From assembly GCA_015660865.1 (NCBI GenBank), contig JACTUA010000005.1, positions 186,001 to 250,000 on the forward strand: DNA of 64,000 nucleotides, given 5' to 3'. Of this stretch, positions 35,739 through 55,484 are shown piece after piece. Under the pieces are notes generated by a model, which was not told the DNA's origin, did no database searches, and was given only the letters and a program-made list of their open reading frames with translations. Source of the stretch: Methanomicrobiales archaeon. Lineage in GTDB: Archaea > Halobacteriota > Methanomicrobia > Methanomicrobiales > JACTUA01. How positions within the stretch are numbered: position 1 is the first letter of the stretch; every line of letters starts with the position of its first letter. The translations under genes and the position numbers were made by a program.

Positions 35739-36017
35739 CTAACCGCCGGAGACAGGGGGAAAGACCGCGATCTCGTCACCGTCGGTGATCGCGGTCTTCT
35801 CTGCATCGGCTGCCTCGACCCGCTTCCCGTTCCGCATCAGGATCACGAACTCCTGAAAGGCACCGTGCTCATCGAAGATGGCATCGTAGCCCTCCCTCTT
35901 CTTCCCGGCGATCTCCCTGATCAATGGGGCAAGGACCGTCCCGGAGGGAGGTTCTGCGACGATATCAGTCCCGAGAAGTTCCCGGAACCGTGCAAAGAAC
36001 CGGACCCTGACTTTCAT
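35739..36017 (-). CDS. moaD: MoaD/ubiquitin-like sulfur carrier
   Basis: A 92-residue beta-grasp protein ending in PPVSGG, the C-terminal Gly-Gly that is adenylated and thiocarboxylated. The N-terminal KVRVRFFARFRELLGTD strand-helix is the MoaD signature. Its start overlaps the stop of the E1-like gene by ATGA, and MoaE follows, so activation enzyme, carrier and acceptor are adjacent. In archaea such carriers can also serve tRNA thiolation or protein modification. Confidence 0.92.
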   Translation of the reverse strand: MKVRVRFFARFRELLGTDIVAEPPSGTVLAPLIREIAGKKREGYDAIFDEHGAFQEFVILMRNGKRVEAADAEKTAITDGDEIAVFPPVSGG

Positions 36018-36775
36018 CTCTTTCTCCTCACGGGCTCGCTTTTTCTCCCGTCGCCGCACACTTCACAGCAGGGGTTCCTCTCCACGCAGATCTCGCTCGC
36101 CTGGGCCTGCATCCCGTCCCAGAGGAAGAGACGGTTCGTCAGCAGATTCCCGGTCCCGAGGAGGAACTTCAGGACCTCGGTCGCCTGTACCATCGCGATC
36201 AGCCCGGGGGTTACTCCAACGACAGGGAAGACCTCCGCGGGGGGCGGCTTCGGGAAGATGCATGAGAGGCATGGGGTCTCTCCGGGGATAATGGTTGTCG
36301 CCTGCCCGTAGAGACCGCGGATCGCGCCGTGGAAGAGGGGGATCATCTTCCCGAGGGCGATCCGGTTCAGGAGGTACCGGGTGGGGTAGTTGTCCATTGC
36401 ATCGACTATCCCATCCGCCCTGCCCACCAGATTTTCGGCGTTTTCCTCGTCGATATGGGCATCGATCGCCCTGATGGTGACATCGGGATTGATCTCCCGA
36501 AGCTTCTCCCCGGCGGAGACGGTCTTTTTCTTCCCGATATCGCTATCGTAATGGAGGATCTGCCGGTTCAGGTTGGTCTGGTCCACCACATCAGAATCGA
36601 CGACGGTGAGGGTCCCCACCCCGGCAACCGCAAGGTAGATGGAGATGGGCGAGCCCAATCCCCCGGCCCCTGCGATGAATATCTCCGCCTCTTTCAGCTT
36701 CTCCTGCCCTTCCTCTCCGAAGAGGAGGATCTGCCGTTTGTACCGCTCACGTTCGCGCCGGGATAACATCTTCAT
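36014..36775 (-). CDS. HesA/MoeB/ThiF E1-like adenylyltransferase
   Basis: A 253-residue E1-like enzyme that adenylates the C-terminus of a ubiquitin-like sulfur carrier. It starts RRERERYKRQILLFGEEGQE, then the ATP-binding FIAGAGGLGSPISIYLAVAG, VDSDVVDQTNLNRQ and DAMDNYPTRYLLNRI blocks. Two zinc CxxC pairs are visible, CLSCIF and CCEVCG. It ends by overlapping the MoaD start, and NifU/NifS precede it, so persulfide supply, carrier activation and carrier are all in one transcript. Confidence 0.92.
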   Translation of the reverse strand: MKMLSRRERERYKRQILLFGEEGQEKLKEAEIFIAGAGGLGSPISIYLAVAGVGTLTVVDSDVVDQTNLNRQILHYDSDIGKKKTVSAGEKLREINPDVTIRAIDAHIDEENAENLVGRADGIVDAMDNYPTRYLLNRIALGKMIPLFHGAIRGLYGQATTIIPGETPCLSCIFPKPPPAEVFPVVGVTPGLIAMVQATEVLKFLLGTGNLLTNRLFLWDGMQAQASEICVERNPCCEVCGDGRKSEPVRRKR

Positions 36776-36783
36776 CTTTCCAC

Positions 36784-37239
36784 TCAGGGTGTCTCCTCGC
36801 CGGGAGGGAGCTCACACTCGGGTTCTTCCCCGTGTTCATGGGTATGGGATGCCTTCTCTTCCCAGAGGGGCAGGCCCTGCCTCTTCCGGTAGTCGTTGAT
36901 GGCCTTGTGGATCCCCTCTTCTGCGAGGAGAGAGCAGTGCATCTTGATGGGCGGGAGCCCCTCGAGAGAATCTGCCACGTCCCTGTTCGTGATCGCCCAG
37001 GCCTCCTCGACGGTCTTCCCCTTCGCGAGCTCGGTCACCATGCTGCTTGTTGCGATGGCCGCGGCACACCCGAAGGTCTGGAACTTGATATCCTCGATCC
37101 GGTTCTCCCGGATCCTCAGGTATATCTTCATGATATCCCCGCAGACGGGGTTCCCGACCTCGCCGATGCCGTCCGCGTCCGGAATCTCCCCCATGTTCCG
37201 GGGGTTCCGGAAGTGCTCCATCACCTTCTCGGTGTACAT
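36784..37239 (-). CDS. nifU: Fe-S cluster assembly scaffold NifU/IscU
   Basis: A 151-residue U-type scaffold. The three cluster-ligand cysteines appear in GNPVCGDIMKIY, FQTFGCAAAIATSSM and KMHCSLLAEEGIH. It starts MYTEKVMEHFRNPRNMGE, as in IscU. The C-terminal tail is rich in His, Glu and Cys (HTHEHGEEPECELP), an addition beyond the usual end that might bind metal. It directly follows nifS with no gap. Confidence 0.93.
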   Translation of the reverse strand: MYTEKVMEHFRNPRNMGEIPDADGIGEVGNPVCGDIMKIYLRIRENRIEDIKFQTFGCAAAIATSSMVTELAKGKTVEEAWAITNRDVADSLEGLPPIKMHCSLLAEEGIHKAINDYRKRQGLPLWEEKASHTHEHGEEPECELPPGEETP

Positions 37240-38421
37240 CTAACCACCCTTCCGTTTGAAATCCGCATAGAGCGGCGACATGGTCCTGAGCCGTTCCACG
37301 ACTCCGGGGAGAACCTGGAGCACGAAGTCCACGTCCTCCTCCCTGTTCGCGTCCCCGAGGGTGAGCCTGAGGGAGCCATGGGCTATCTCGTGGGAGAGCC
37401 CGATGGCAAGGAGGACGTGGGACGGCTCGAGGGATCCGGAGGTGCATGCCGATCCCGTGGAACCGCAGACACCGAACCCGTCAAGCGAGAGGAGCATGGA
37501 TTCCCCCTCGATGAACTCGATTGAGATGTTCACATTCCCCGGGAGGCGCTTCTCCGGGTGACCGTTCAGCCGGGAGTGGGGGATGGCGAGGATCCCCCTG
37601 ATGAGCCGGTCGCGCATCGACTGGATCTTTCGATTATGCCCCTCAATATCGGAGGTGGCCAGCTCGATGGCCTTGCCGAGGCCGACGATCCCGGCCAGGT
37701 TCTCGGTCCCTGCCCTTTTCTTCTGCTCCTGCCCGCCCCCGTGGATCAGGCTGTCGATCCGCGTGCCCCTTCGGATGTAAAGGGCTCCAGCACCCTTCGG
37801 CCCGTAGAACTTGTGGGCAGAGAGGGAGAGGAGGTCGATGTTCTGGCCCTGGACGTCGATGGGAACGTTGCCCACGGCCTGGACGGCATCGGTATGGAAC
37901 AGAACCTTGTGCTCATGCGCGATAGCCCCGAGCTCGCTCACGGGCTCGATGGTCCCGATCTCGTTGTTCGCGTACATGACGGAGACGAGGATGGTATCCT
38001 TCCTGATAGCCGATTCGAGATCGGCGGGATTGACGAGCCCGAACTGGTCCACGGGGAGGTAGGTGACCTCGAACCCCTGCTTCTCGAGCCACTGGCACGG
38101 GTGAATGACCGCGTGGTGCTCGATCTTCGAGGTGATGATATGGTTCCCCTTCTTCCGGTTCGCGAACGCGACCCCCTTGAGCGCCCAGTTGTCCGATTCG
38201 CTCCCTCCGGCGGTGAAGTAGCACTCCTCCGGCCTCGCCCCCAGCGCCTTCGCCACCCTCCCCCGTGCCGCCTCCACGACCTGTTTCGACTCTCGGGCGA
38301 GGGAGTAGACGGATGACGGGTTCCCGAACCGCTCCGTGAAGTACGGGAGCATCTCGGTGAGTACCTCGGGTTTCGTGAAGGTGGTAGCCGCATGGTCCAT
38401 GTACACGATCCGCTGTCCCAT
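37240..38421 (-). CDS. nifS: Cysteine desulfurase NifS/IscS
   Basis: A 393-residue class I cysteine desulfurase. YMDHAATTFTKPEV opens the protein, the PLP lysine is in SLSAHKFYGPKGAGALYI, and the long catalytic loop CGSTGSACTSGSLEPSHVLL carries the persulfide cysteine. A GGAGGG site precedes the ATG at 38421. It heads a seven-gene operon down to tfuA, and its promoter region is shared with a divergent regulator and contains the palindrome TTCACAATTGTGAA. The role is sulfur supply for NifU and probably for the downstream sulfur-transfer genes. Confidence 0.94.
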   Translation of the reverse strand: MGQRIVYMDHAATTFTKPEVLTEMLPYFTERFGNPSSVYSLARESKQVVEAARGRVAKALGARPEECYFTAGGSESDNWALKGVAFANRKKGNHIITSKIEHHAVIHPCQWLEKQGFEVTYLPVDQFGLVNPADLESAIRKDTILVSVMYANNEIGTIEPVSELGAIAHEHKVLFHTDAVQAVGNVPIDVQGQNIDLLSLSAHKFYGPKGAGALYIRRGTRIDSLIHGGGQEQKKRAGTENLAGIVGLGKAIELATSDIEGHNRKIQSMRDRLIRGILAIPHSRLNGHPEKRLPGNVNISIEFIEGESMLLSLDGFGVCGSTGSACTSGSLEPSHVLLAIGLSHEIAHGSLRLTLGDANREEDVDFVLQVLPGVVERLRTMSPLYADFKRKGG

Positions 38422-38495
38422 AGGTACCCTCCTGTGACCTGAGATATCCCTCACATCATATGATAAGCCCGCTGATGGAACCCGGGACTCCGGAC

Positions 38496-38535: not shown

Positions 38536-38577
38536 CGTATCTTCTTATTACCTCCGGATTCATTTAAAGGTTGTGCT

Positions 38578-38907
38578 ATGATGAAGACACCCTGCCAGCA
38601 GATCGTCTGGGACGTGCTCCCGGCCATCAGGGCAGCCCTTGCGGCCGACCTCGTCAGGAACGGGGTATCCCAGCAGGAGGTGGCGAGGCTCCTCGAGATC
38701 GCCCCGTCTGCCGTCTCCCAGTACCTCTCCGGGAAACGGGGGTACCGGATCGTCTTCGAGGACGCCGTGGAGAAGCGGATCCAGGAACTCGCCCGGGATA
38801 TCAAGGCCGGCGGGGTCCGGGATATCACCGCCCGGATCTGCGCCATCTGCCATGGGATCAGGGGCGACGAGGGCGGCTGTGCCCCGGTGAAAGAGCCAGG
38901 CTCGTAG
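38578..38907 (+). CDS. XRE-type HTH regulator with four cysteines, candidate Fe-S or sulfur sensor
   Basis: A 109-residue DNA-binding protein. The helix-turn-helix is at about 30-54 (GVSQQEVARLLEIAPSAVSQ, then YLSGKRGY). Cysteines are Cys6 near the N-terminus and Cys88, Cys91 and Cys101 in the C-terminal part (ARICAICHGIRGDEGGC), a set that could bind a [4Fe-4S] cluster or zinc. The arrangement resembles the archaeal COG2522-type predicted regulators. The gene has the palindrome at its predicted transcription start and is followed by LarE, SufS and FdhD genes. That it binds the palindrome is my inference from position and from the gene set. Confidence 0.8.
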   Translation: MMKTPCQQIVWDVLPAIRAALAADLVRNGVSQQEVARLLEIAPSAVSQYLSGKRGYRIVFEDAVEKRIQELARDIKAGGVRDITARICAICHGIRGDEGGCAPVKEPGS

Positions 38908-39002
38908 CCATCCCCGCCATTTCCGGTCCGACCGGGAAAGATTATCCCCCATCCCCGGTAAAGCTCCTGCAGGATACCGGTTCGGAGAGGCTCACGGTTT
39001 TC

Positions 39003-39800
39003 ATGGACGTGAAGGGGAAGGAGGAGATCCTCAGGAAGAAGATCGGAGAGCGGGGTTCCCTGCTCATCGCCTACTCCGGGGGTGTCGACTCCTCGCTCCT
39101 TGCCGGAATCGCCCGGGAGGTGCTCGGGGACCGGTGCCGTGCCGTCCTCCTGGAGAGCCCCGTTGTACCCCGCGCTGCCGTCCGTCAAGCGGAGGAGACG
39201 GCGGTTATGCTCGGGATACCCCTGGAGATGATCCCGGTACCCCTTATGGAAGAGGAGACGTTTCTCGCGAACCCGGCTGACCGCTGTTATTATTGTAAGA
39301 AGGTCTCGGCCCGGGTCCTGAAGAGGTGTGCAGACGATGCAGGGCTCGCCTGCGTGGCAGACGGGATGAGCTGCTCGGATCTCGGTGAGCACCGCCCCGG
39401 GATCAGGGCAAGCGATGAAGAGGGGATCTTCCACCCTTTTGTCGAGGCCGGGATGACCAAGAAGGATATCCGGGCGATTGCCAGGAGAAGGGGCTATGCC
39501 TTCTGGAACAGACCCTCAGCCGCCTGCCTCTCCTCGCGGATCCCCTACGGCGATGAGATCACGAGGGAGAAGCTCCGGATGATCGAGGATGCCGAGGAGC
39601 ACCTCCACCACCTCGGGTTCACCCAGGTAAGGGTCCGGCTCCACGGCGGAATCGCAAGGATCGAGGTTATCCCTGAAGAGATGGAGAAGCTCTTGGAGGA
39701 GGGAGCTGTGATCCTGAATACCTTCCGATCCATCGGATTCCAATACGTAACGATCGATCTGGGCGGCTACAGGACCGGCTCCATGGACGAGGTGCTATGA
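39003..39800 (+). CDS. larE: LarE-type ATP-dependent sulfur transferase
   Basis: A 265-residue PP-loop ATPase. The PP motif SLLIAYSGGVDSSLLAGIA is near residue 19. A CxxC (DRCYYCKKV) and a third cysteine (SAACLSSRIPYGDEIT) fit the cluster-binding form of LarE rather than the sacrificial single-cysteine form. LarE sulfurates a nicotinate-derived cofactor precursor in lactate racemase maturation; no LarB or LarC is nearby, so its acceptor here may differ. The start MDVKGKEEIL at 39003 is used because the upstream part of the frame overlaps the HTH gene. It ends in a 4-bp ATGA overlap with the desulfurase gene. Confidence 0.88.
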   Translation: MDVKGKEEILRKKIGERGSLLIAYSGGVDSSLLAGIAREVLGDRCRAVLLESPVVPRAAVRQAEETAVMLGIPLEMIPVPLMEEETFLANPADRCYYCKKVSARVLKRCADDAGLACVADGMSCSDLGEHRPGIRASDEEGIFHPFVEAGMTKKDIRAIARRRGYAFWNRPSAACLSSRIPYGDEITREKLRMIEDAEEHLHHLGFTQVRVRLHGGIARIEVIPEEMEKLLEEGAVILNTFRSIGFQYVTIDLGGYRTGSMDEVL

Positions 39801-40981
39801 TACCCACGGAGATCCGGGCTGACTTCCCGATCCTCTCGGAGATCTGCTACCTGGACAGCGCGGCCACGTCCCTCTCGCCGGAACCGGTCCTCGCGGCGAT
39901 GCTCGAGTTTGAGCACGTCTATCGGGCGAATGTCGGCCGGGGGGTCCACCGCCTCGCCCAGGTCGCCTCGCAGAAGTACTGGGATGCCCACCAGAAGGCC
40001 AGGAGGTTCATCGGCGCAGAAGGAGGCGAGCTGGTCTTCACGAGGAACACCACCGAAGCGATCAATATGATCGCATGGGGGCTCCCGTGGCAGAACGGAG
40101 ACGGGATCGTCACCACCCTTCTCGAGCACCACAGCAACCTCCTCCCCTGGATGCGCCTCCGGGACCAGAAAGGGATCGACCTCCAGCTCATCGCCCCGGC
40201 AGCGGACGGTGCCCTGGATCTGGCCGACTTCGAGAGAGCCATCACCCCGGATACACGGCTCGTCGCCATCACCCATGCCTCCAATGTTCTCGGGAACCTG
40301 GTGCCTGTCCGGGAGATCGCGAGAATCTGCAGGGACCAGGGGGCCCTCCTCCTGGTGGACGGCGCCCAGTCGGTTCCCCACATCCCGGTGAACGTGGAGC
40401 GCCTGGGGTGCGACTTCCTCTGCTTCTCGGGCCACAAGATGCTCGGGCCCACGGGGACGGGTCTCCTCTGGATGAGAAGACCGGAGATCGAACCTCTCCT
40501 CCTCGGGGGCGGGGCGGTTGACCAGGTCAGCACGTCGGGATATACCCTCGCTTCAGGCTACACACGATTCGAGGCAGGGACGCCGAATATCGCGGGCGCC
40601 ATCGGCCTCTCCCGTGCGGTGGAGTACCTGGAGGCTCTCGGGATGGAGGATGTGAAGCGGCACGAGCAGGCCCTCACCCGGCGGATGCTGGAGGGGCTTG
40701 CAGGGATCCCCGGCGTGCGTGTCCTGGGGCCCGGGCCCGCGGGAGACCGGATAGGGGTCGTCTCCTTTACCGTCGGAGATATGCACCCGCACGAGGTCGC
40801 CACCATCCTCGACGAGGAGGCCGACATCATGGTGCGATCGGGGCATCACTGCTGCATGCCCCTCATGACCCACCTCGGCATTCCCGACGGGACGGTGCGG
40901 GCGTCCCTCCACTGCTACAACAACGCCGACGACGTGGACCGGCTCATCGAAACGGTAGGTAAGATCGCAGGGGGGGCCTAG
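39797..40981 (+). CDS. SufS-type cysteine desulfurase
   Basis: A 394-residue class II cysteine desulfurase-like PLP enzyme. It has ICYLDSAATSLSPEPV at the start, LEHHSNLLPW near 112, LLVDGAQSVPHIPV, the PLP lysine in FSGHKMLGPTGTG near 215 and the active cysteine in VRSGHHCCMPLM near 352. All catalytic residues are intact. This matters because the C-terminal half of the 52842 gene is a close relative that has lost them. The start overlaps LarE as ATGA, suggesting it feeds sulfur to LarE and FdhD. Confidence 0.9.
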   Translation: MIPTEIRADFPILSEICYLDSAATSLSPEPVLAAMLEFEHVYRANVGRGVHRLAQVASQKYWDAHQKARRFIGAEGGELVFTRNTTEAINMIAWGLPWQNGDGIVTTLLEHHSNLLPWMRLRDQKGIDLQLIAPAADGALDLADFERAITPDTRLVAITHASNVLGNLVPVREIARICRDQGALLLVDGAQSVPHIPVNVERLGCDFLCFSGHKMLGPTGTGLLWMRRPEIEPLLLGGGAVDQVSTSGYTLASGYTRFEAGTPNIAGAIGLSRAVEYLEALGMEDVKRHEQALTRRMLEGLAGIPGVRVLGPGPAGDRIGVVSFTVGDMHPHEVATILDEEADIMVRSGHHCCMPLMTHLGIPDGTVRASLHCYNNADDVDRLIETVGKIAGGA

Positions 40982-40983
40982 GG

Positions 40984-41739
40984 ATGTACCGCGAGCTGCC
41001 GTGCACCCGGGTGGATGAGAAAGGGGTCCGGGAGATCACCCACCCGGTGATCGAGGAGGTGCCGGTGACGGTGACCGTGAACGGCAGGCAGGTCGCGACC
41101 GCGATGACGAGCCCGGTCGAGCTGGAGGAGTTTGCCACCGGCTTCCTCTTCACCGAAGGGATCATAAAGGGACGGGCGGAGATCGAATCCATCCAGGTCG
41201 AGAAAACCGGCGTGAAGGTGATCACGAAGAACCTCCTCAAAGTCATCGGGCCGAGGAGGACCATCCTCTCCGGCTGCGGGGGGTCCTCCTCCTTCCTTGA
41301 CCCGGCGAAGCTCCCGAAGGTCGGGTCGTCCTTTACCATCCCGGCGCAGGTGATCTCCCGCTCCATGAAGGAACTCCTCCAGTCCGATCTCCACCGCCTT
41401 ACCGGCGGGGTCCATATCGTCGGACTCTATGGTCCCGACGGGGAGATCACCCGCTCACTCGACATCGGGAGGCACAACGCCCTCGACCGGGTCATCGGGT
41501 ACGGCCTTATCCATGGGATCGACCTCGGGCAGGTGTATGCACTCTCCTCGGGTCGCATCTCCTCGGAGATGGTCCGGAAGTGCCTGGTCGCGGGGATCCC
41601 CCTCGTCGCCTCACGGGGCGCGACCACTACCCTTGCGGTGAGCCTCGCGGAGAAGAACGGCCTCACGGTTATAGGGTTCGTCAGGGCTGGCGGCATGAAT
41701 ATCTACACGAACCCGCAGCGGGTCACCGTTCCGGGCTGA
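40984..41739 (+). CDS. fdhD: Formate dehydrogenase accessory sulfurtransferase FdhD
   Basis: A 251-residue FdhD, which moves sulfur from a cysteine desulfurase to the Mo/W-bis-MGD cofactor of formate dehydrogenase. The family blocks FATGFLFTEGII, TGGVHIVGLY, DIGRHNALDRVIGYGL and SRGATTTLAV are clear. The mobile loop usually has CxxC; here only SGCGGSSSF is present, with one cysteine. It follows the desulfurase by 2 nt. The 3' end overlaps the convergent TtuA-like gene by 17 bp. It implies formate use, common in Methanomicrobiales. Confidence 0.92.
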   Translation: MYRELPCTRVDEKGVREITHPVIEEVPVTVTVNGRQVATAMTSPVELEEFATGFLFTEGIIKGRAEIESIQVEKTGVKVITKNLLKVIGPRRTILSGCGGSSSFLDPAKLPKVGSSFTIPAQVISRSMKELLQSDLHRLTGGVHIVGLYGPDGEITRSLDIGRHNALDRVIGYGLIHGIDLGQVYALSSGRISSEMVRKCLVAGIPLVASRGATTTLAVSLAEKNGLTVIGFVRAGGMNIYTNPQRVTVPG

Positions 41740-46929: not shown

Positions 46930-47448
46930 CTATTTCCTCTTCCCCTGCCTGTCTCCGTCAACAAGGGCAAGGTCAGTCTCCCGCAGGGGGTTGTGGCAGT
47001 ACGGGCACTGGAAGTCGCACTCCACCCCCTCGTACGGGCAGATGGTCATGGAGAGGTCTGCGAGGGGGTGCCCCTTGGACTGGAGGGTGAACTCCTTGTA
47101 CCACCCGAAGGGCGCCCGCTTCACCTCGATCCCAGCCCTTTCCAGCCGTTCCCCGAGCCCTCTGAGAATTCGGAGGGCAACCTCAGGCTGCGCCAGGGTG
47201 TTCGTCAGGTGGGCATACGGGAAGATCATCACCCGCGCAACCTTCAGCTTGCCCAGCCGCTCAAGGACGTCCCTTTCCCCGTGTGCCACCACGAACTCCG
47301 GGTTCAGTTCGTCCACCTTCTCGACGCAGCAGAAGAGGACCACCCCCTCCTCCATGGTATCCTCCTTCTTCTCGACAGGTTCTGCCATTCGGGTCTTCTG
47401 GGTTGCCCGGTATCTCATGGATGTTGCATGGATGGCGAGGATCCTCAT
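46930..47448 (-). CDS. Free threonyl-tRNA synthetase editing domain with Cys-rich tail
   Basis: A 172-residue protein corresponding to the archaeal ThrRS N-terminal editing domain, which hydrolyses Ser-tRNA(Thr). [15 protein letters not shown] opens it; [34 protein letters not shown] and [20 protein letters not shown] are the characteristic blocks. The C-terminal 35 residues carry [18 protein letters not shown], a four-cysteine motif not part of the domain and probably zinc-binding. Its start overlaps the metX stop as ATGA. Trans-acting editing proteins are known where ThrRS lacks its own domain. Confidence 0.85.
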
Positions 47449-48917
47449 GGACATCTCCCGATGAGGGTGCTGATGGCATCGCTCGTGATGATCCCGATCA
47501 CCTTCTTCCCGGCGTCCACGACAGGCAGCGCAGAGATGGCATGGGCCTCCATCAGGTGGGCGGCCTCTTCTATGGGATCGTCGGCGAGAGCGGTGATCAC
47601 GTTCCGGGTTATGATCTCATCCAGGCGGTCAAGGCCGCATGCCACCGCTTTCGCGATATCCCAGGAGGTGACGATGCCGGTGAGCCGGTCCCCTCCATCG
47701 TGCACAGGCAGGTGGTTCACCTCCAGCCGGATCATCATCTTTGCCGCGGCAGCCACGCTCGTCTCTTCGGGGATTGTGGGGGCATCGGGGACCATCACGT
47801 CCCTGACGAGGGAGGTGGAGAGGAACGTGCCGACCAGGTAATTCAGCTGCCCGGCCTCCAGGAGGAAGGCGTCGTGCCCGTAATGGGACCGGATCTCGCC
47901 ATAGTGGACGTCCTGCTCGTTCGCCGTGAGCGCCGAGACGATCTCCTGCTGCTGGTATGGGGGATAGAGCCAGTCGGATGTGATCCCCACGACGAGCACC
48001 TTCGCCTTCACGGGGGCGAGCCCCGTGATGAGCGAGCCGTCCCTCGCGAGATCGAAGTAGTCGATGGCCTTCGTGATGTACAGGTAGGAGTTGGCATCGA
48101 ACCGCCGGGTAAAGGCATCGCCCTGGTGCCGGAGGTAGCTCTCGACCTGGAACTCCGTCGAGAAGTCGAACCCCGGCTGCTCCCTCACCTGGAGCCTGCG
48201 CCCGAACTTCGAGTGCATCGAATCGTCCGAGAGGTACGTGATATGCCCCACCATGCGGGCGACGGCAAGCCCGTGGACAGGCTCCCTCGCCCCGTAGTAG
48301 TTCCCGTCCTGCCAGGCGGGGTCAGCCATGATCGCCCGCCTCCCCACCTCGTTGAACGCGATCTGCTGGGCGGTCGAGGCGGCGGAGGTCGCGATCACTA
48401 CCGCCTTTCTGACCATCTCCGGGAAGTCGACGCACCACTGGAGGACCTGCATGGCGCCCATCGACCCGCCGGCCACCGCGAAGAGGTGCCGGATCCCCAG
48501 GTTGTCGATGAGCCTCTTCTGCGCCGCCACCATGTCCCGGATCGTGACCACGGGGAAGGAGATCCCATAGGGTTTCCCCGTAGCCGGGTCTGTCGAGGAG
48601 GGACCCGTGGTCCCCTTGCAGCCGCCGAGGACATTCGAGCAGATGACAAAGTACCTGTCGGTGTCGAAGGCCTTCCCCGGGCCGATGGCTATCTCCCACC
48701 AGCCGTTCCTCCCGTCCTCGTCCGAGACACCCGCTGCATGGGCATCGCCGGAAAGGGCATGGCAGACCAGGATCCCGTTGGACCGGTCCCTGTTCAGGGT
48801 GCCGTAGGTCTCGTACGCGATCCGCAGGTGCTGGAGCCTCGAACCGCCCTCCAGCTCCAGCCCTTCCAGTATATCGACGAACTGCGTGGTGACCTTCCCG
48901 ACCGATCCCTTCGTCAT
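47445..48917 (-). CDS. metX: Homoserine O-acetyltransferase MetX with C-terminal CBS domains
   Basis: A 490-residue alpha/beta-hydrolase enzyme for methionine synthesis. [14 protein letters not shown] forms the oxyanion region, the nucleophile serine is in [15 protein letters not shown] near 150, and [10 protein letters not shown] has the catalytic His/Asp end. After about residue 365 come two CBS domains ([20 protein letters not shown] and [20 protein letters not shown]), a regulatory module that could bind adenosyl ligands such as SAM. The fusion is known in methanogens. It follows MetY by 1 nt. Confidence 0.93.
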
Positions 48918-48918
48918 G

Positions 48919-51590
<2,672 letters not shown>

Positions 51591-51601
51591 GGTTCCCTCA
51601 G

Positions 51602-51673
51602 AGCCAAGGCCCGGAATCGAACCGGGATAGAGCTGATCTGCAGTCAGCTGCGTAGCCACTCCGCCACCTTGGC
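51602..51673 (-). tRNA. tRNA-Cys (anticodon GCA)
   Basis: A 72-nt cloverleaf reads on the minus strand: acceptor GCCAAGG pairs with CCTTGGC; the anticodon stem GCTGA/TCAGC holds loop CTGCAGA with anticodon GCA; the T arm CCCGG-TTCGATT-CCGGG is perfect; the discriminator is T73, the classical tRNA-Cys identity base. The D stem has three good pairs. CCA is not encoded. The gene lies just downstream of a TATA box and two operator palindromes and 11 nt before SepCysS, so tRNA and mRNA share a transcript. Confidence 0.95.
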
Positions 51674-51681
51674 ATTGTGAG

Positions 51682-51695
51682 TTCACAATTGTGAA
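51682..51695. promoter_or_regulatory. Palindromic operator TTCACAATTGTGAA, site 3
   Basis: Third exact copy of the palindrome, 8 nt before the 5' end of mature tRNA-Cys and just downstream of the predicted transcription start, a repressor-like position for the tRNA-Cys/SepCysS operon. Confidence 0.8.
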
Positions 51696-51875: not shown

Positions 51876-51918
51876 ACATTGATCGCACTTCATGATCTCA
51901 TGGTTCCGGAGGGTATCC

Positions 51919-52830
51919 ATGGAGGAGTACAGAGGGTTGCATGAGAGGATCTCCGCTCTCAAGGAGGAGCGGGATGCCGTCATCCTGGCCCACAACTACC
52001 AGATCGGGCCGGTCCAGGACGTCGCCGACCTCGTGGGGGACTCCCTTGAGCTTTCCCGGGCTGCTGCCTCCATGGACTGCGAGGTTATCGTCTTCTGCGG
52101 CGTGGACTTCATGGCCGAGACCGCGGCCATCCTCTCCCCTAAAAAGATGGTCCTCCTCCCTGCACCCGATGCCTGCTGCCCCATGGCCGAGATGGTCACA
52201 GCGGGAGAGGTGCGGCTGCTCAGGGAGCGCTACCCGGATGCGGCCGTGGTCGCCTACGTGAACACCACCGCGGAGGTGAAGGCCGAGAGCGATATCTGCT
52301 GCACCTCGGCGAACGCCGTGAAGGTAGTGGAGTCCCTCCATGAGGACCAGGTGATCTTTGTGCCCGACCGGAACCTCGCTCTCTATGTTGCCCGGTTCTC
52401 GAAGAAGGAGATCCTCCCCTGGGAAGGATACTGCATCGTCCATGACCGGTTCACCCCCGCCGATGTCCGGGCGGCGCGGGAGAAACACCCCGAAGCCGAG
52501 GTGATCGTCCACCCGGAGTGCAGGCCCGAGGTGATCGACCTTGCCGACGGGGTCTTCTCGACCTCCGGGATCATCCGCCATGCCTGCACGGGGGAGGGGA
52601 AGGAGTTCATCATCGGCACCGAGGTCGGCATCCTCCACCGTCTCGGTCAGGAGTGTCCCGGGAAATGGTGCTACCCGCTCTCTGAGATGGCCGTCTGCGT
52701 CAACATGAAGAAGACGGACCTCCAGAAGGTGTGCACCGCCCTCGAGCGCCTGGAGCCGCGCATCACCGTCCCCGAAGAGGTCGCCCGGCGTGCCCGGACG
52801 GCGATCGACCGGATGCTCGCCGTCAAGTGA
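51919..52830 (+). CDS. nadA: Quinolinate synthase NadA
   Basis: A 303-residue [4Fe-4S] enzyme that condenses iminoaspartate with dihydroxyacetone phosphate in NAD synthesis. VILAHNYQIGPVQDVADLVG, VFCGVDFMAETAAIL and LPAPDACCPMAEMV (first cluster Cys) are present; VNTTAEVKAESDICCTSAN, VHPECRPEV (second Cys) and GTEVGILHRLGQECPGKWCY (third Cys) complete it. GGAGGG 5 nt before the ATG at 51919 decides the start. Its promoter adjoins operator sites 3 and 4. The enzyme needs an Fe-S cluster, fitting a sulfur/Fe-S regulon. The next gene is convergent. Confidence 0.95.
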   Translation: MEEYRGLHERISALKEERDAVILAHNYQIGPVQDVADLVGDSLELSRAAASMDCEVIVFCGVDFMAETAAILSPKKMVLLPAPDACCPMAEMVTAGEVRLLRERYPDAAVVAYVNTTAEVKAESDICCTSANAVKVVESLHEDQVIFVPDRNLALYVARFSKKEILPWEGYCIVHDRFTPADVRAAREKHPEAEVIVHPECRPEVIDLADGVFSTSGIIRHACTGEGKEFIIGTEVGILHRLGQECPGKWCYPLSEMAVCVNMKKTDLQKVCTALERLEPRITVPEEVARRARTAIDRMLAVK

Positions 52831-52841
52831 GAGAGGTCTTA

Positions 52842-55484
52842 TCACCGTACCAGGTCCGCGATGCCTGCCACGAGGAGATCAACTTCCTGATCTGTTGTGT
52901 AGACATACACGCTCGCCCGCACGGTGCCCCCGGCCAGGCCGAGATGCTTTATCAGCGGCTGGCAGTCATGATCACCGGCGCTGACCAGGATATCGGATGC
53001 CTCGTCCAGGTGCATCGCAACCGCCTGGGGTTCCAGCCCGTCAACTGTGAACGAGACGACCCCGATCCGGTCAAGCGGACTCTCCGGCCCGTATACCTTT
53101 ACCCCGGGCAGGACACGGAGCCCGTTAAAGATCCGTTCGGCGAGACGCATCTCATGGCTTCGGATCCGTTCCATACCTATTCCGGCCAGGTAGTCGACAG
53201 CGGCACCGAGGCCGATTCCGGCCGAGATATTCGGGGTTCCCGCCTCGTAGCGCTGGTAACCCTCGCCCATGGTGTACCCCGCGAGGGAGACCGTACCGAC
53301 CATTCCACCGCCTAAGAGGAGCGGGTCGAGGACAGGATCCTTCATCCAGAGCGCGCCGGAACCCGAGGGGCCGAGCATCCTGTCCCCCGAGAAGCAGATG
53401 AAGTCGCACCCAATGGATGAGACATCTACAGGGATGTGCGGGACCGAGTGGGTGCCGTCCACCAGGAGAAACGCACCATGATCCCGGCAGATCCGGCTGA
53501 TCTCCCCGACCGGCGTAATGGCACCGAATACACCAGACGCATGGGTGACTGCGACGAGCCGTGTCCGATCCGTTATCGTCTCCTCCAGTCGATCGAGGTC
53601 AAGGAAATATCCGGGAGTAACCGGCAGTATATCGCATTCCACCCCCTGCTCCCGCAGGTGCAGCCAGGGCACGAGGTTGGAATGGTCCTCGAGCACGGTG
53701 GTGATTACCTGGTCGCCGGGGTTCCACCCCAGCCCCTTTGCCACCATGTTGATCGCCTCGGTCGCATCCCGGGTGAAGACCACCTCCCCCTCCTTCGCCC
53801 CGATGAATCGTTTGACCTTCTGGTGGGCATCCCAATACTTCTGCGAGGCGATCTGGGAGAGGCGGTGCACCCCCCTCCCGACATTGGCCCGGTAATGGTG
53901 CTCGTACTCGAGCATGGCCGAGATCACCGGTTCGGGAGAGATGCTCATCGCGGCACTGTCGAGGTAGATGAGGTCCGCGATGAGCGGAAAGTCCCCGCGG
54001 ATGGCTTCACCCGGAGCAGGCACCGCCCTCTCTGTCCCTGCCGTAGTCTCATCCGGACCAGGTCTTTCCGGCCCGACTGTTGTGGGTAATGCCCCTCTTT
54101 TTTCACGAGTGACAGGCTGGACGTGATCTTCCTGGATCGCGATCCCGTACCGGGTGCACAGCTCACGCATCTTCGGCGGGAGATCCCTCCAGCGCCAGAG
54201 CCCCCACCGGGCATACTCCTCGGGGAGGTTGTGGTGCTCCGCCCAGCCGGCCAGGAACCGGTCCCACCTCTGCGCTCGTTCGGGATGCATCCCCCTGAGC
54301 AACTCGTGCTCGCTCTCGAGCATCGCCGGGCAGAGATAGCACCCGATCCTCTCGACTCCCCGGTCGTAGAGTGGGTTCACCGGCAGCTTCTGCCACCAGA
54401 GGTACAGGAAGACCTCGAGGGCGCGCCAGTTGCGGATCGGGGAGATGTTCAGCTGGAGCGGGTTCGCGGGGTTCTGGCTCGTTGCCTCGAGATCCGCCCG
54501 GTTCCAGGACTCGTACCACCGGTTCCCCTGGACCGTGACGCACGGGCCGATGGTGGCGAGGTGGAGGCGGAGCGGGTGGAGCTTCAGGAGCTTGCAGCAC
54601 CACCGCTGGTCCTTGGCAGGGGGGCCCGCCTTCCCTGCCGCCGCCCAGAAGTCCCCGGCCTTCCGGATGATCTCGACACCCTGACTCTCCACGAACTCCA
54701 CGGTCTCGGGGAACTCGATCCCGGTGTCGATGAAGAAGGCCGAGGAGACCCCTGCCTTCCGGGCGAGGGCCATGACGGCCATCGAGTCCTTGCCACCTGA
54801 GAAGGAGACGTTTGCGCTGGGGCGATCGCTCATGTGATGCCGGATCTCCCGGATGGCGTTCCTCTCCAGGTTCTTCAGGTGGCGCCGGTTCCGGTTGATT
54901 GCGACCTCCCAGCCCGGGTCAGGGGGGCTCCGGGCCTGAACTGCCGTGATCTCCTTGACCCTCAGTTGTCCTGCCCTCAGCACCCCTGTACCGTACCCAT
55001 TCCGGTACTTCACCACCACAGTCCCGTCGGGCTCGCTGGTCTTGACAGGGAACCTTTTGCCCCCGATCCTGCGACCGTCCAGACTTCCTGCCGCCGCTGC
55101 CTCCCAGAGATCCACGATCCCACGGGTCGCATGGCCGATGATGAACGGGAGCCCGCCGGGAGCGATGTCAAACCTGGACCTCCGGATCACCGGATCGAAG
55201 GAGAGCCACCCGAACCGTTCGCCGTGGATGATGACAAGGTCGTTCCGGTCGACCCCGCCGGCTTTGTTGAGAAGGATGATGCGGGGAAGAGGCACGGGCC
55301 CAAACCGGTCCTCCACAAGGCCCCGAATCAGCGCAAGGTCGGCTGCGAGGGCGGGTCTCACGTCGTACGGGGCCTGGAGCAGGACCCGCCTTCCCTCTGC
55401 GCCGCACCCGCAGGTCCGTGCGATGAGGGGGACATTGCAGCGATCGCACCAGTACAGGATCTTCTTGACCGGCGGCTCTCGCAT
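52842..55484 (-). CDS. PAPS-reductase-like PP-loop protein fused to a degenerate cysteine desulfurase domain
   Basis: An 880-residue fusion. Residues 1-35 hold a zinc ribbon (YWCDRC and TCGCG), about 70-195 a PUA-like domain, and about 200-450 a PAPS-reductase-type PP-loop domain (NVSFSGGKDSMAV at 225, RWCCKLLK, GCYLCPAM), with cysteines able to bind a cluster. After a Pro/Thr linker, residues 495-880 are a class V aminotransferase domain very like the SufS at 39797. Its key residues are changed: PLP lysine to Arg702 (SGDRMLG versus SGHKMLG), substrate Arg to Ser, catalytic Cys to Asp840 (with Cys841 next to it), and one His of LEHHSN to Asp. The PLP aspartate (VDG) remains. A TATA box (CTTATAGG) lies about 30 nt upstream. 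Confidence 0.88.
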   Translation of the reverse strand: MREPPVKKILYWCDRCNVPLIARTCGCGAEGRRVLLQAPYDVRPALAADLALIRGLVEDRFGPVPLPRIILLNKAGGVDRNDLVIIHGERFGWLSFDPVIRRSRFDIAPGGLPFIIGHATRGIVDLWEAAAAGSLDGRRIGGKRFPVKTSEPDGTVVVKYRNGYGTGVLRAGQLRVKEITAVQARSPPDPGWEVAINRNRRHLKNLERNAIREIRHHMSDRPSANVSFSGGKDSMAVMALARKAGVSSAFFIDTGIEFPETVEFVESQGVEIIRKAGDFWAAAGKAGPPAKDQRWCCKLLKLHPLRLHLATIGPCVTVQGNRWYESWNRADLEATSQNPANPLQLNISPIRNWRALEVFLYLWWQKLPVNPLYDRGVERIGCYLCPAMLESEHELLRGMHPERAQRWDRFLAGWAEHHNLPEEYARWGLWRWRDLPPKMRELCTRYGIAIQEDHVQPVTREKRGALPTTVGPERPGPDETTAGTERAVPAPGEAIRGDFPLIADLIYLDSAAMSISPEPVISAMLEYEHHYRANVGRGVHRLSQIASQKYWDAHQKVKRFIGAKEGEVVFTRDATEAINMVAKGLGWNPGDQVITTVLEDHSNLVPWLHLREQGVECDILPVTPGYFLDLDRLEETITDRTRLVAVTHASGVFGAITPVGEISRICRDHGAFLLVDGTHSVPHIPVDVSSIGCDFICFSGDRMLGPSGSGALWMKDPVLDPLLLGGGMVGTVSLAGYTMGEGYQRYEAGTPNISAGIGLGAAVDYLAGIGMERIRSHEMRLAERIFNGLRVLPGVKVYGPESPLDRIGVVSFTVDGLEPQAVAMHLDEASDILVSAGDHDCQPLIKHLGLAGGTVRASVYVYTTDQEVDLLVAGIADLVR

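Follow-up and report, generated by a model that had tools for sequence, protein, structure and literature searches.

Architecture of the fusion gene

The window, by which we mean the whole stretch of 64,000 nucleotides that was analysed, comes from an archaeal genome of 1.94 Mb (99% complete) whose named relatives belong to Methanomicrobiales. It contains a gene for a protein with a CysH/PRK13795-like and a SufS-like half, and a separate, intact sufS gene (Table 1). In Pfam, PAPS_reduct (PF01507) matches residues 225-387 of the fusion (E 2.8e-34) and Aminotran_5, of the aminotransferase class V fold, residues 506-871 (E 8e-111). In NCBIfam, PRK13795 matches residues 8-454 (E 2.9e-118) and SufS (TIGR01979) residues 494-877. 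The match to PRK13795 (NF010366) scores 395.8 bits, below the family cut-off of 745, and covers the N-terminal part alone. Both halves were modelled with good confidence (mean pLDDT 84.8 for the whole fusion, 90.7 for the N-terminal half modelled alone). A Foldseek comparison of the predicted SufS-like half with SufS structures gave TM-scores to target of 0.88-0.92 over the whole domain. The linker between the halves is highly variable among relatives, and in one intact fusion (L253:2585-5482, genome G054) it is a long TPESRA/TPESRT repeat array of roughly 80-100 residues.

The original prediction was of a desulfurase-like domain without its catalytic residues, tethered to a PP-loop protein and resembling the intact SufS encoded elsewhere in the window. 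The profile matches and the alignment agree with this description; the SufS-like half and the standalone SufS (39797-40981) are 59% identical, and both motifs quoted in the prediction are common to them.

Table 1. Features of the fusion gene and of the standalone sufS locus, in window coordinates
Feature	Position	Strand	Basis
Fusion gene, CysH/PRK13795-like half and SufS-like pseudoenzyme half, 880 aa	52842..55484	(-)	ORF open from 55484 to 52842; domain profile matches; full-length homologues
PRK13795-like half, PP-loop ATP pyrophosphatase/PAPS-reductase-like fold, residues 8-454	54123..55463	(-)	Profile matches; model pLDDT 90.7
N-terminal cysteine cluster C13, C16, C25, C27, putative zinc ribbon	55404..55448	(-)	Invariant or at least 90% conserved, 39-row alignment
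PP-loop motif SGGKDS, residues 229-234, invariant	54783..54800	(-)	39-row alignment
Cys296-Cys297, first half of APS-reductase-type [4Fe-4S] ligand pattern, invariant	54594..54599	(-)	Alignment; cluster inferred
Cys382-x-x-Cys385, second half of [4Fe-4S] ligand pattern, invariant	54330..54341	(-)	Alignment; cluster inferred
Flexible linker, residues 455-493	54006..54122	(-)	pLDDT < 50 for 453-489, predicted disordered; variable among relatives
SufS-like pseudoenzyme domain, residues 494-878	52851..54005	(-)	Profile matches; SufS alignment; fold match
Asp600 replacing PLP-stacking His (H123)	53685..53687	(-)	Alignment
Arg702 replacing PLP lysine (K226)	53379..53381	(-)	Alignment
Retained Gly-Gly-Gly loop of beta-latch, residues 725-727	53304..53312	(-)	Alignment; role in SufS (reaching partner subunit's active site) from PMC10011822
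Retained Glu-Ala-Gly-Thr, residues 747-750	53235..53246	(-)	Alignment
Ser835 replacing active-site Arg (R359)	52980..52982	(-)	Alignment
Asp840 replacing persulfide Cys (C364)	52965..52967	(-)	Alignment
Intact standalone SufS, proposed active partner, all catalytic residues present	39797..40981	(+)	Alignment; tree
larE-like gene, 4-base overlap with sufS start	38571..39800	(+)	LarE assigned by reading, no family search
fdhD-like gene directly downstream of sufS	40984..41739	(+)	FdhD assigned by reading, no family search

The PP-loop half

The best PDB folds for the model of the N-terminal half are APS/PAPS reductases (2goy, 4bwv), followed by TtuA and LarE, and APS/PAPS reductases are its closest relatives in both fold and sequence. 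As expected of a CysH protein, its SGGKDS PP-loop lies inside the PAPS_reduct domain. It shares with APS reductase (2goy, 4bwv) the PP-loop fold and the CC...CxxC pattern, which in APS reductases holds a [4Fe-4S] cluster. Unlike APS reductase, it lacks the invariant C-terminal catalytic cysteine: no invariant Cys follows C385 in the 39 sequences, and the half is therefore probably no sulfonucleotide reductase. The four conserved or near-invariant cysteines near the N-terminus are compatible with a predicted zinc ribbon. A PUA/RNA-binding domain was also considered, but PF01472 gave no match to the fusion gene at E up to 10, a profile search beyond whose reach a diverged PUA-like fold may lie; four other places in the genome do match.

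The N-terminal half is shared with the PRK13795 family, whose members in other archaeal orders are 618-698 residues long. In the window fusion the SufS-like domain replaces the C-terminus of that family, which we take to be a ferredoxin domain. Our reading of the literature turned up nothing direct on what the PRK13795 half does, and no account of a reaction catalysed by the CysH-like half or of its sulfur acceptor. As a lead rather than a result, the N-terminal half may be a PP-loop, Fe-S-dependent sulfur-transfer enzyme; its catalytic step, at a guess from its fold relatives, could be the activation of sulfur or its transfer to an acceptor.

Catalytic residues of the SufS-like half

Residues were compared with the consensus of intact relatives in an alignment that included E. 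coli SufS, the numbering of which is given in brackets. The position of the PLP Schiff-base lysine, residue 702, is Arg in 5 of 5 members of the dead clade described below. That of the persulfide cysteine in the S-transfer loop, Asp840 in the window, is Asp or Gly in these relatives. The replacement of Lys702, Cys840, His600 and Arg835 by Arg, Asp, Asp and Ser, respectively, had been predicted and is seen in the alignment; Asn651 (N175) and Gln679 (Q203) are lost as well, to Gly and His, and Asp701 replaces a His (H225). One detail of the prediction fell away. Cys841 had been read as the catalytic cysteine shifted by one, but most intact relatives have Cys-Cys at 840-841, which makes Cys841 an ordinary neighbour and rules it out as a shifted nucleophile.

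Other parts of the enzyme are in place. Asp676 (D200) and Arg856 (R379) are kept, and the Gly-Gly-Gly loop and hairpin region of the β-latch are present in all full-length members of the dead clade. The retained Glu-Ala-Gly-Thr corresponds to E275-T278 of SufS, a segment that reaches the site of the partner subunit, where its Thr contributes to the PLP phosphate. The β-latch and the R56 loop likewise act across the SufS dimer (PMC10011822, PMC11408855). Set against type II SufS (TIGR01979; E. coli, B. subtilis, Thermococcus onnurineus CDS), the window domain thus shares the whole-domain fold, the β-latch, D200 and R379, and lacks the PLP lysine, the persulfide cysteine, the stacking His, Q203, N175 and R359. 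PLP-dependent persulfide chemistry would be impossible in such a domain.

Distribution of the fusion and origin of the dead state

Full-length homologues of the fusion are present in most Methanomicrobiales genomes, and none was seen outside this order when 119 near-complete genomes were sampled from the phylum. The published passages on CysH-SufS fusion cluster 536 (mSystems 2024, PMC11237513) also confine it to Methanomicrobiales, and its domain order and archaeal order are those of the window gene. These passages describe the fusion only, with no mention of a loss of catalytic residues, whereas the SufS half of the window gene is dead.

Across the order we compared 142 distinct fused SufS domains. 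All six diagnostic residues (H123, N175, Q203, K226, R359 and C364) are found in 134, two are truncated yet intact for the part present, one is partly degraded and five are dead. The dead domains belong to the window's genus (G000, G001) and to a related genus of the same family, g4 (G006, G007, G008), and form one clade in the tree (support 100/98). They share the replacement of K by R, Q by H and N by G; across the two genera, D, E or P is found at position 600 and D or G at position 840. In the other genera of the family, g2, g3, g5 and g6, the fused domains are intact. Because nearly all of the 142 domains are intact, the catalytic loss is a derived, lineage-specific state, most likely descended from an intact fused desulfurase. 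The same count does not support its being a property of the family.

In one genome (L252, G154:C2:314000-323000) a PP-loop gene adjoins an unfused SufS, followed by nadA-like and larE-like genes, and this SufS falls within the fused clade in the tree. G009 has a normal fused copy and, on another contig, a second copy (L106:5944-8565/L129, G009:C45) split by an in-frame TGA into a PP-loop ORF of 473 residues and a SufS ORF of 400 residues.

A second, independent loss

A dead fused SufS domain is also encoded in all four genomes of genus g24 (G124-G127; L271-L274; L254:2274-5240), which belongs to a different family of Methanomicrobiales. In all four the persulfide Cys is replaced by Gly, N175 by His and R359 by Lys or Thr, and K226 is lost in one. 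The g24 sequences form a clade of their own, separate from the dead clade of the window, and an intact standalone sufS-fdhD pair is encoded in the same genomes.

Selection on the dead domains

Since the losses are common to the members of each genus, divergence within a genus postdates them, and dN/dS (Nei-Gojobori) was compared at this level. As dS is about 0.9-1.0 in some pairs, the ratios are rough, and any undercount of dS would make them overestimates. The dead domains gave 0.21 (G000-G001) and 0.23-0.25 (pairs within g4), where the PAPS half gave 0.11-0.14 and the active standalone SufS 0.18; in g24 the range is 0.12-0.16, against 0.08-0.16 for the standalone SufS of that genus. After the loss, dN/dS in both lineages (0.12-0.25) is thus near that of active SufS. 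None of the nine dead-domain genomes shows a stop codon or frameshift in the fusion; in G006 the contig ends within the SufS half, and in G007 and G124 the PAPS half is covered only in part.

We then took the 86 sites at which 97% or more of the active domains agree and followed them in the window's clade, which has four full-length dead domains. In all four, 62 of these sites are unchanged and seven are lost (H123, N175, Q203, K226, R359, residue 360 and C364). Lists of residues acting in cis and in trans were taken from the literature and general knowledge and drawn up with the alignment in view; by these lists, the clade has kept 3 of 14 active-site residues acting in cis and 8 of 8 partner-reaching elements (Fisher p 0.001), the latter counted over the Arg56 loop, the GGG loop, E275, G277 and T278. 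The trans elements (8/8) do not differ significantly from the other conserved fold sites, kept at 62 of 83 (p 0.19). The contrast of the window's clade is absent from g24, which has kept 4 of 8 trans elements and 7 of 14 cis residues; there Gly57 has become Asn, the central Gly of the GGG loop is either Ser or Asn, and the majority of PLP residues remain.

Loss of catalytic residues within a lineage and purifying selection on the fold mark a pseudoenzyme, and both are found in the SufS-like half. We consider it highly probable, from these comparisons, that this half is dead and under purifying selection. The suggestion that it is a docking platform accordingly survives in part: the SufS fold has been kept by selection and shows no random decay, which fits a role in docking or assembly, though not one common to the family.

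The standalone SufS and its neighbourhood

The larE-sufS order of the window recurs at four other loci (L258 of G001, L265 of G130, L284 of G075 and L285 of G079), and the sufS-fdhD pairing in other genera and outside Methanomicrobiales. In E. coli, FdhD and a cysteine desulfurase sulfurate formate dehydrogenase (PMC12140954). Just upstream of larE-sufS-fdhD, window positions 36014-38454 hold a second sulfur cluster with MoeB/ThiF-like and NifU-like genes and an intact NifS (TIGR03402, above cut-off). Near the fusion, genes at 47445-51686 read as homoserine acetyltransferase, an acetylhomoserine sulfhydrylase-type enzyme and Sep-tRNA:Cys-tRNA synthase, a sulfur amino-acid neighbourhood, and a nadA-like gene (quinolinate synthase, 51892-52845) is convergent with the fusion. 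nadA is near the fusion also in G001, G007 and 5 of 49 loci with long flanks.

Every dead-domain genome has an intact standalone SufS, usually beside fdhD, except G008, which is 56% complete. Within the window's family it is present in G000, G001, G006 and G007, all with a dead fused domain, and it was not found in the family's genera with intact fused domains, bar the stop-split copy in G009. Restriction of the standalone enzyme to dead-domain genomes fails across the order: among near-complete genomes it accompanies the dead domain in 4 of 4 and the intact domain in 19 of 76 (Fisher p 0.006, ancestry ignored). Because many genomes hold both a standalone SufS and an intact fused domain, the former alone does not force the loss, and since only two independent losses underlie it the co-occurrence is weak once ancestry is counted. 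The association is therefore suggestive, not firm.

A tree with outgroups places all fused domains in a single clade (100/98) and the standalone SufS outside it. The AU test rejects a grouping of the standalone SufS with the dead domains (p 0.0003), so the standalone gene did not arise recently from the fusion by copying. A duplicated fusion with later reciprocal loss had been hinted at by an outgroup-free tree and by fdhD beside the fusion in some relatives, and was rejected once outgroups were included. fdhD directly follows the fusion in genera g2, g3 and g6 of the window's family; as a general rule this fails, holding for 14 of the 130 distinct fusions whose flanks were long enough. The standalone SufS retains almost all of its own trans elements and can therefore be expected to homodimerise, which makes an obligate heterodimer improbable.

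Interpretation of the dead domain

The sequences show that the PLP-holding and persulfide-bearing residues have been lost and the fold conserved, that dN/dS since the loss is well below 1, and that the genome keeps a separate, intact SufS. The reading we prefer, with a probability of roughly 0.45, is that the SufS-like half is a dead SufS pseudoenzyme descended from an intact fused ancestor, maintained by selection and working through protein contacts, most likely with the standalone SufS. In a mixed dimer with the enzyme encoded at 39797, the standalone subunit would give the lysine and the cysteine, and the tethered dead subunit the structural elements that cross the dimer interface. Persulfide would be formed beside the tethered PP-loop/Fe-S half and then used by it. 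A split cysteine desulfurase in this full sense, with one working site and direct delivery of persulfide to the PP-loop/Fe-S enzyme, is possible, if on the unlikely side. Its model is serine palmitoyltransferase, a PLP enzyme pair whose LCB1 (SPTLC1) subunit lacks the lysine (PMC3794620). LCB1/LCB2 resembles the proposed pairing in having one subunit without lysine; the pathway is unrelated, and the heterodimer is established there but only proposed here.

For the role of the domain, which is inferred, the mixed dimer is the most informative model, with a homodimer scaffold and a passively maintained tail as close rivals. Against it stands the finding that trans elements are kept no better than other fold residues, which plain fold maintenance would fit. 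Furthermore, trans-complementation does not generalise to g24, because the trans elements there are partly changed and most PLP residues are kept.

The dead domain could instead be a mere homodimerisation scaffold that holds two PP-loop halves together, as the active domain would in relatives, with no need of catalysis or of a standalone partner. We regard this as doubtful, though the kept fold and purifying selection are what it would predict, a type II desulfurase from an archaeon is an obligate dimer (PMC5426080), and both lineages fit, including g24 with its altered trans elements. It leaves unexplained why the Arg56 loop, the GGG loop, E275 and T278 are fully retained in the window's clade against the loss of cis residues, and such a scaffold is not generally needed, as PP-loop halves without any SufS domain occur in the order (e.g. 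L161, L163).

It is unlikely that the domain is redundant and in slow decay, having lost catalysis given a second SufS and being conserved through selection against misfolding of an attached domain. A second SufS copy does occur in every dead-domain genome of sufficient completeness. Evolution is also faster in the dead domain, where G000 and G001 are 73% identical, than in the PAPS half (86%), and in g4 the dead domain sits on a long branch. However, a single stop codon could shed a C-terminal domain, and none was found in the nine genomes, two of them partly sequenced there; dN/dS is close to that of active SufS, and the losses cluster on catalytic residues instead of being spread.

New chemistry at a remodelled site (Asp600, Arg702, Asp840), with or without PLP, is very improbable. 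Asp676 and Arg856, which contact the PLP ring and the substrate carboxylate, are kept in all full-length members of the dead clade. A new active site should be conserved, however, and the replacement residues vary between genera as described above. No evidence supports the PLP-independent activity raised in the original prediction. The prediction had also treated orthologues with intact Lys and Cys as a sign of local decay or error; such orthologues exist, but the loss is found in five separate genomes of one clade, under purifying selection, and recurs independently elsewhere. Nothing was found in favour of an error in sequencing or assembly, or of a local pseudogene. The chance of either is negligible, given that five genomes from two genera show K replaced by R, Q by H, N by G and C by either D or G, all in open frames and with dN/dS well below 1.

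Significance

The fusion itself has already been reported, and no earlier report of the dead state of its SufS half was found. Literature that treats pseudoenzymes together with cysteine desulfurases amounted to a survey of B. subtilis PLP proteins, and we know of no comparable tethered pseudo-desulfurase. Annotation tools will label the fusion a cysteine desulfurase, though its sequence is without the residues needed. Cysteine desulfurases have a central place in sulfur transfer; a naturally dead copy retained within a larger enzyme would show that their fold is used as a partner or dock besides its catalytic use. The loss occurred twice independently in a single archaeal order, both times next to an intact standalone SufS in the genome, which provides a natural comparison for testing the formation of mixed dimers, and a desulfurase partner would give a handle on the reaction of the CysH-like half and on its sulfur acceptor.
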